Shown in pieces: positions 12,071 through 12,543 of a stretch of DNA of 64,000 nucleotides. A program made the position numbers and the translations under genes. Numbering within the stretch: position 1 is the first letter of the stretch; the number at the start of each line of letters is the position of its first letter. This DNA comes from Sinomonas sp. R1AF57 (GTDB lineage Bacteria; Actinomycetota; Actinomycetes; Actinomycetales; Micrococcaceae): assembly GCF_002224485.1 (NCBI RefSeq), contig NZ_CP022463.1, forward strand, positions 2,617,990 to 2,681,989, written 5' to 3'. The notes beneath the pieces were generated by a model that did not search any database, was not told the DNA's origin, and was given only the letters and a program-made list of their open reading frames with translations.

Positions 12071-12177
12071 CGTTTCGGGTACGCCAACTCCCGCCGCTGA
12101 ACGTCTCAGGTACGCCAACTCGCGCCGCTGGGCGTCTCAGGTACGCCAACTCGCGCCGCTGGGCGTCTCAGGTACGC
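12071..12177. repeat. 31-bp tandem repeat array with GTAC-centred motif (forward set)
   Basis: The motif cgtYtcRGGTACGC starts at 12071, 12102, 12133 and 12164, an exact 31-bp period, and most of the intervening sequence (CCAACTCGCGCCGCTGGG) repeats as well. The array starts 25 bases after the glnR stop. The opposite-facing version of the same motif occurs at 12284-12364. Confidence 0.85.
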
Positions 12178-12283
12178 GCCGGGCCTGGCCCACGCTCGGC
12201 TGGCGCACGACGGCGGCGAGCCGGCTCACGCTCGGTGCGCACCCGGCGTCGTGCGCGCCGCACCCGAGACCCAGCGAGGCCTT

Positions 12284-12364
12284 ATTTCGCGTACCCGAAA
12301 CCGACTTAGGACCGCGTTTCGCGTACCCGAAACGCCCTGGGGGCGCGTTTCGCGTACCCGAGAC
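12284..12364. repeat. Palindrome array (reverse set), 31-32-bp spacing
   Basis: Three copies of TTTCGCGTACCCGAAAC or a close variant begin at 12285, 12317 and 12348. Each is nearly palindromic around GTAC. Here only the palindromes are conserved while the intervening sequence differs, unlike the forward set at 12071-12177. The two sets face each other across about 105 bases. Confidence 0.8.
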
Positions 12365-12389
12365 GAACGTGGGGGCCGCGCGGACGCGC

Positions 12390-12422
12390 CGAGGGCCCCG
12401 CACGGTGGGTGCGGGGCCCTCG
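12390..12422 (-). terminator. Perfect 14-bp hairpin, terminator of the candidate small RNA
   Basis: CGAGGGCCCCGCAC pairs perfectly with GTGCGGGGCCCTCG around a 5-base loop. It could also stop read-through from glnR on the plus strand, since it is symmetric. It lacks a T-run on either side. Confidence 0.65.
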
Positions 12423-12508
12423 GGAAGGGTGGAGGACATACGGGTCGAACGTATCAAAGCCACCCCACTGGTGGATCCCCCTCGGCCGCCGGTGCGCCCG
12501 GCGACAGG
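12390..12508 (-). ncRNA. Candidate small RNA with anti-Shine-Dalgarno segment
   Basis: On the minus strand a promoter (TTGACG at 12538-12543, exactly 17 bases, TACTGT at 12515-12520) predicts a start near 12508. The transcript would fold as a small hairpin (CCACC/GGTGG), a second hairpin (ATACG-TTCGACC-CGTAT), an unpaired pyrimidine run UCCUCCACCCUUCCC able to pair with GGAGG ribosome sites, and a perfect 14-bp terminal stem (12390-12422). No convincing peptide is encoded. No U-tract follows the stem, which is common in GC-rich genomes. I do not recognise a known RNA family. Confidence 0.5.
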
Positions 12509-12514
12509 ACATTG

Positions 12515-12543
12515 ACAGTACCCGAGGCGGCCCGCGGCGTCAA
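12515..12543 (-). promoter_or_regulatory. Minus-strand promoter for the candidate small RNA
   Basis: TTGACG and TACTGT are separated by exactly 17 bases, each one or two bases from the housekeeping sigma consensus. No protein gene starts downstream on this strand, which is why a non-coding product is proposed. Confidence 0.55.

Follow-up and report, generated by a model that had tools for sequence, protein, structure and literature searches.

A short element on the minus strand between glnR and mshD of Sinomonas sp. R1AF57 is probably the gene of a mini-tRNA-Ala, an RNA that would be alanylated without taking part in decoding and would act as an alanine donor, most likely for membrane lipids. 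Its core spans 53 nt (12481-12429, minus strand; coordinates refer to the window, the whole 64,000-nt stretch of DNA that was analysed) and with a leader and a terminator it makes up a functional unit that is smaller than the region 12385-12543 marked out in the first-pass annotation. What can be read from the DNA is tRNA anatomy, alanine identity elements, conservation, synteny and linkage to a gene module. The alanine identity of the element is close to certain, its charging with alanine is likely and lipid is the destination suggested by genomic context.

Folded as a consensus, 26 relatives give a three-way junction (Table 1) with the features expected of a tRNA, namely a 7-bp acceptor stem, a T arm with a TTCRANY loop, a contiguous stack and A73 followed by C74. 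The T arm joins the 3' strand of the acceptor without a gap, as at tRNA positions 65/66, and the D-like arm begins right after the acceptor. The element shares with tRNA-Ala the acceptor GGGGGAU/xUCCUCC, the G3:U70 pair, A73, the T arm and the GG of the D loop but differs in its length of 53-56 nt and in the absence of positions 8-9 and of the anticodon arm, in place of which the copies carry a linker of 4-5 nt. CCA is encoded in many copies of the element and absent from some loci, with A73 and C74 conserved, and terminal CCA is likewise not fully encoded in the window's own two tRNA genes. Both of the small hairpins described in the first-pass annotation are present, as is its C-rich stretch. 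The hairpins are the D-arm-like arm and the T arm; the supposed free anti-Shine-Dalgarno linker, UCCUCCAC, is really the 3' strand of the acceptor stem together with A73 and C74.

Table 1 Features of the mini-tRNA locus in Sinomonas sp. R1AF57 (window coordinates)
Feature	Coordinates	Strand	Description
Promoter	12515..12543	-	-35 TTGACG 12543-12538, 17-nt spacer, -10 TACTGT 12520-12515
Predicted transcription start	near 12508	-	From promoter hexamers
Predicted 5' leader	12482..12508	-	From fold; GC-rich hairpin in Sinomonas, variable in relatives
Acceptor stem 5' strand GGGGGAU	12475..12481	-	tRNA positions 1-7; G3 at 12479
D-arm-like hairpin CCACC-AGUGG-GGUGG	12460..12474	-	5 bp; loop with conserved GG (G18G19-like)
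Linker CUUUG	12455..12459	-	5 nt, in place of anticodon arm and variable loop
T arm AUACG-UUCGACC-CGUAU	12438..12454	-	tRNA positions 49-65; 7-nt loop UUCGANY, 5-bp stem
Acceptor stem 3' strand GUCCUCC	12431..12437	-	tRNA positions 66-72; U70 at 12433
Discriminator A73 and C74	12429..12430	-	Terminal CA not encoded
Terminator-like stem	12389..12423	-	15 bp, 5-nt loop, no U tract; from fold

Within Sinomonas the mean pairwise identity of the core is 98%, compared with 51% in the 70 nt upstream and 43% in the 60 nt downstream, a level of conservation well outside what chance would give. Across 49 distinct cores 99.4% of cells are paired and compensatory changes are found at six pairs, three in the D-like arm and three in the T stem, with 49 both-side changes observed against 12.5 in shuffles; in Pseudonocardia the T stem UCAGG/CCUGA replaces AUACG/CGUAU. 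The G:U pairs of the helices are consistent with the minus strand only. Conservation of stems and linker and compensatory changes in the stems had been named in the first-pass annotation as support for an RNA gene, and both were found across Micrococcaceae relatives. The acceptor GGGGGAU/GUCCUCC is invariant, with G3:U70 and A73 in 49/49 distinct cores; this invariance is forced by the query in the pattern-derived copies but is not fixed in the BLAST and covariance-model sets, where the acceptor is invariant too. The bare core does not fold more stably than its shuffles, and folding energy was not counted among the evidence; for the full transcript a competing fold is predicted. The resemblance to a tRNA-Ala minus its anticodon arm could also be that of a decaying tRNA-Ala pseudogene, an explanation with practically no chance of being correct and refuted by conservation, given the identity of the core over its flanks (43-51%), the compensatory changes, the conserved promoter and the spread of the element over several families.

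The hexamers TTGACG and TACTGT do stand 17 nt apart on the minus strand where they were first placed, and this pair was not listed in a strict sigma-70 scan. A promoter-like -35/-10 pair lies upstream of 114/146 copies of the element compared with 3.7% of shuffled upstream regions. The 5' leader is presumably removed by RNase P. In relatives a hairpin is found immediately 3' of the core, and the transcript would end at the predicted terminator ~40 nt past the core; the closing stem of the first-pass annotation is there, with 15 bp at 12423-12389 rather than a perfect 14 bp. The original proposal of an independent small RNA on the minus strand, equipped with a promoter and a terminator, is supported. 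The role assigned to it fared less well. The UCCUCC of the element could pair with GGAGG sites, as would be required of a trans-acting RNA that blocks Shine-Dalgarno sequences in the manner of 6C, but in every member it is paired with GGGGGA (100% of cells in the consensus fold) as part of a tRNA-like fold with a T loop and discriminator, leaving no accessible anti-Shine-Dalgarno stretch. 6C RNA (RF01066) is likewise an actinobacterial small RNA with two hairpins and a C-rich stretch, whereas the element has no covariance match to it and no C6 loops, and its C-rich stretch is a paired acceptor strand. No Rfam 15 family, 6C included, matches the element at gathering thresholds, and at E<=10 just two microRNA models do so at chance level. 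Together with the linkage to AlaRS and LPG_synthase, a lipid aminoacyltransferase, in other genera, this makes a 6C-like function very improbable. A nitrogen or thiol role had been drawn from glnR, which is just a neighbour and points to neither.

Using the 166-nt region as a BLAST query the core was found in 15/15 Sinomonas genomes and in 12/45 other sampled Micrococcaceae genomes, the Micrococcaceae copies lying antisense between glnR and mshD-ppk. A DNA-pattern scan of GTDB genomes returned at least 117 stretches, at least 93 of them with glnR, mshD or ppk within the 8-kb tile; the other 24 listed stretches, lacking these genes, include 0 Micrococcaceae records. The element is also present in Pseudonocardia, Gordonia, Williamsia and Rhodococcus, the first matches outside Micrococcaceae having come from covariance model R1 in one Gordonia and in another actinobacterial family, with Williamsia following later. 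No exact pattern match was found in viral contigs. Outside the two lineages, weak covariance matches (L068-L072, L075, L078-L082) were discarded as chance, being mispaired and scoring <30 bits. Four exact pattern matches were rejected, three on inspection (L165, L195, L225) with the fold absent or within coding sequence and no module genes, and one (L245) with a divergent core and no module genes.

Several loci are unusual in other respects. Arthrobacter sp. Br18 carries two identical mini-tRNA copies 746 bp apart (L235, 4514-4566 and 5260-5312), a duplication that may be real or an assembly artefact. Records labelled Vibrio cholerae 35D, Acidobacteria MAG and Sporosarcina contain typical Micrococcaceae glnR-mshD loci and one labelled Kitasatospora arboriphila contains a Williamsia-like locus; contamination or mislabelling of these records (L177, L227, L253, L191) is likely. 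In the window itself, a cluster of palindromic repeats GTTTCGGGTACGCGAAAC and variants occupies 12072-12364 between glnR and the mini-tRNA gene, with 7 matches to the repeat, all within this interval, against 0.04 expected.

The relation to true tRNA genes is also seen with a covariance model of the element (R2) that was built without any tRNA sequence and run on 396 genomes of the phylum. Strong matches were confined to Micrococcaceae with weak ones elsewhere, and 16 of the 18 best weak loci outside Micrococcaceae coincided with tRNA genes called by ARAGORN that begin at precisely G1; ten were tRNA-Ala with a GGGGGAU acceptor and six tRNA-Tyr. ARAGORN and RF00005 gave no match to the element at 12385-12543, consistent with the missing anticodon arm. 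The G3-U70 pair is the main AlaRS determinant (PMC6451123), and tmRNA, which is processed by RNase P, is alanylated via this pair without an anticodon (PMC3985003). The tRNA-like domain of tmRNA and the element have in common the upper half of a tRNA, a G3-U70 alanine identity and no anticodon; the element differs in having a compact D-like arm, no mRNA-like domain, tag frame or pseudoknots and a length of ~55 nt against ~350. No tmRNA match (RF00023 included) was found in the window.

Outside Micrococcaceae the module loci encode three proteins. One is a 459-471-aa AlaRS (mini-AlaRS) that consists of PF01411 only and aligns to approximately the N-terminal 440 residues of the E. coli enzyme. 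The second, ~710 aa long, has at its end LPG_synthase_C (PF09924), the transferase domain of MprF/LysX, and the third is a membrane esterase (PF00756). Among the 20 listed non-Micrococcaceae pattern loci, 17 have mini-AlaRS, LPG_synthase_C or esterase in the 8-kb tile and 13 have mini-AlaRS, among them the locus in the complete Pseudonocardia dioxanivorans CB1190 genome (L262). No module genes were seen at three of the listed loci, of which two are second copies in Williamsia genomes and the third lies on a short Pseudonocardia contig. Across 81 genomes of the Gordonia/Williamsia family mini-AlaRS is found in 8, and the 5 genomes that carry the element all belong to these 8 (p=2e-6); genomes with mini-AlaRS retain a full-length AlaRS. 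In G878, G872 and G888 mini-AlaRS is present with no element detected, and a search for a divergent mini-tRNA near these genes yielded nothing convincing. Solo second copies of the mini-tRNA lie away from the module in Williamsia genomes (L093 8328-8381, L248, L270). The mini-AlaRS genes without a detectable mini-tRNA (L295, L296 and L297) include one, at L296, that adjoins a distant LPG_synthase_C. In another family of the order, where no mini-tRNA was found, a 432-aa AlaRS paralogue (G071:C17:33358-34479) accompanies a normal AlaRS.

In a tree of AlaRS proteins, mini-AlaRS groups as a single clade (15/15) at the end of a long stem (support 0.875); the class II motifs are kept and the editing and C-terminal domains are absent. 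Minihelices can be charged by a fragment of E. coli AlaRS of about this length. N303 and D400 of E. coli AlaRS, the residues that read G3:U70, are represented by an aligned Asn in 12/15 mini-AlaRS, with replacement in three, and by Asp or Glu at the position of D400 in all 15. The equivalent of this Asp has been described in an archaeal AlaRS (PMC6451123). Charging of the element with alanine is strongly implied by G3-U70 as the main AlaRS determinant, by the alanylation of tmRNA via the same pair and by the way the gene travels with a catalytic AlaRS fragment.

No mini-AlaRS was found in Micrococcaceae, and Sinomonas has full-length AlaRS only. The absence of a dedicated synthetase from this family, along with the loci at which CCA is not encoded, would fit an RNA that mimics a tRNA as a decoy or sensor binding AlaRS, RNase P or LPG synthase and for which charging is unnecessary. 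We find such a regulatory mimic improbable, as A73 and C74 are conserved and CCA is encoded in many copies, the window's tRNAs are also without an encoded CCA, and elsewhere the RNA is found together with a dedicated AlaRS whose catalytic motifs are intact. The LPG_synthase_C gene, linked to the tRNA and synthetase genes outside Micrococcaceae, is unlinked in Sinomonas, where the esterase-LPG_synthase_C pair lies ~540 kb from the element (L326 10231-8912 and 8981-6411, minus strand). In 60 Micrococcaceae genomes a strong LPG_synthase match is found in 24/27 with the element vs 7/33 without it, and by genus in 9/11 vs 4/21 (p=0.0016), a linkage that is a trend confounded by common ancestry. Several element-free Micrococcaceae keep the esterase-LPG_synthase pair, and three that bear the element (G026, G038, G055) have no strong LPG_synthase match.

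These three genomes and the solo second copies outside the lipid module leave some room for another destination of the alanine carried by the same mini-tRNA. In Micrococcaceae, FemABX/MurM-type ligases would pass it on to the interpeptide bridges of peptidoglycan; otherwise it would go into a peptide or some natural product. Alanine is a frequent constituent of the bridges in walls of the Arthrobacter type. However, the walls of the four other module-bearing genera are directly cross-linked, the module genes there are LPG_synthase_C and esterase and Sinomonas has the same pair, so that we regard this destination as unlikely, if less so than a regulatory mimic.

In the mechanism that we propose for the alanylated mini-tRNA, the RNA would be transcribed alone, trimmed by RNase P and completed at its 3' end to CCA. 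Charging would be carried out in Pseudonocardia, Gordonia, Williamsia and Rhodococcus by the dedicated ~465-aa AlaRS, which comprises the catalytic and acceptor-recognition part only, and in Micrococcaceae including Sinomonas by the normal AlaRS. The alanylated RNA, unable to decode, would become a non-ribosomal alanine donor from which an LPG_synthase_C (MprF-type) enzyme would take alanine to form alanylated lipids, a step proposed from gene linkage; the esterase encoded alongside may serve to trim the product or to recycle it, although this role is a guess. The alanyl-PG synthase of Pseudomonas reportedly accepts acceptor-stem minihelices. MprF, LysX and AlaDAGS share the LPG_synthase_C transferase with the module, and LysX couples this transferase to a synthetase. 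MprF homologs synthesise alanyl-diacylglycerol and alanyl-PG in Corynebacterium, where AlaDAGS makes alanyl lipids (PMC10580965). These known systems use ordinary elongator tRNAs, whereas here the RNA would be a dedicated one, as would the truncated AlaRS of some taxa.

In the open-licence literature we found no description of such an RNA, and the element is absent from Rfam. Non-proteogenic tRNA-Gly of Staphylococcus is kept from translation and acts as an amino-acid donor for the envelope; unlike the element these are full cloverleafs with anticodons, and the amino acid and enzyme are different. We know of no tRNA in nature that stands free, lacks the anticodon arm, has its own synthetase and serves a non-ribosomal use. 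To our knowledge, a free-standing anticodon-armless tRNA combined with a minimal synthetase and, as predicted user, a lipid-modifying enzyme is likewise without counterpart. On balance we favour, with somewhat less assurance than the identity of the Sinomonas element itself, a system in Actinobacteria in which a free-standing mini-tRNA-Ala, joined in some genera by a minimal AlaRS, supplies alanine to membrane lipids separately from translation. If true, this would be nature's parallel to the experiments with minihelices and AlaRS fragments on the operational RNA code and a living case of that code, under which an acceptor-stem minihelix needs no anticodon to be charged. Synthetic biology would gain from it a compact, orthogonal pair of AlaRS and mini-tRNA. 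For the bacteria themselves the system would mean an aminoacyl-donor pool set apart from translation, and would bear on how membranes are modified against cationic stress in Arthrobacter, Gordonia, Williamsia and Pseudonocardia.
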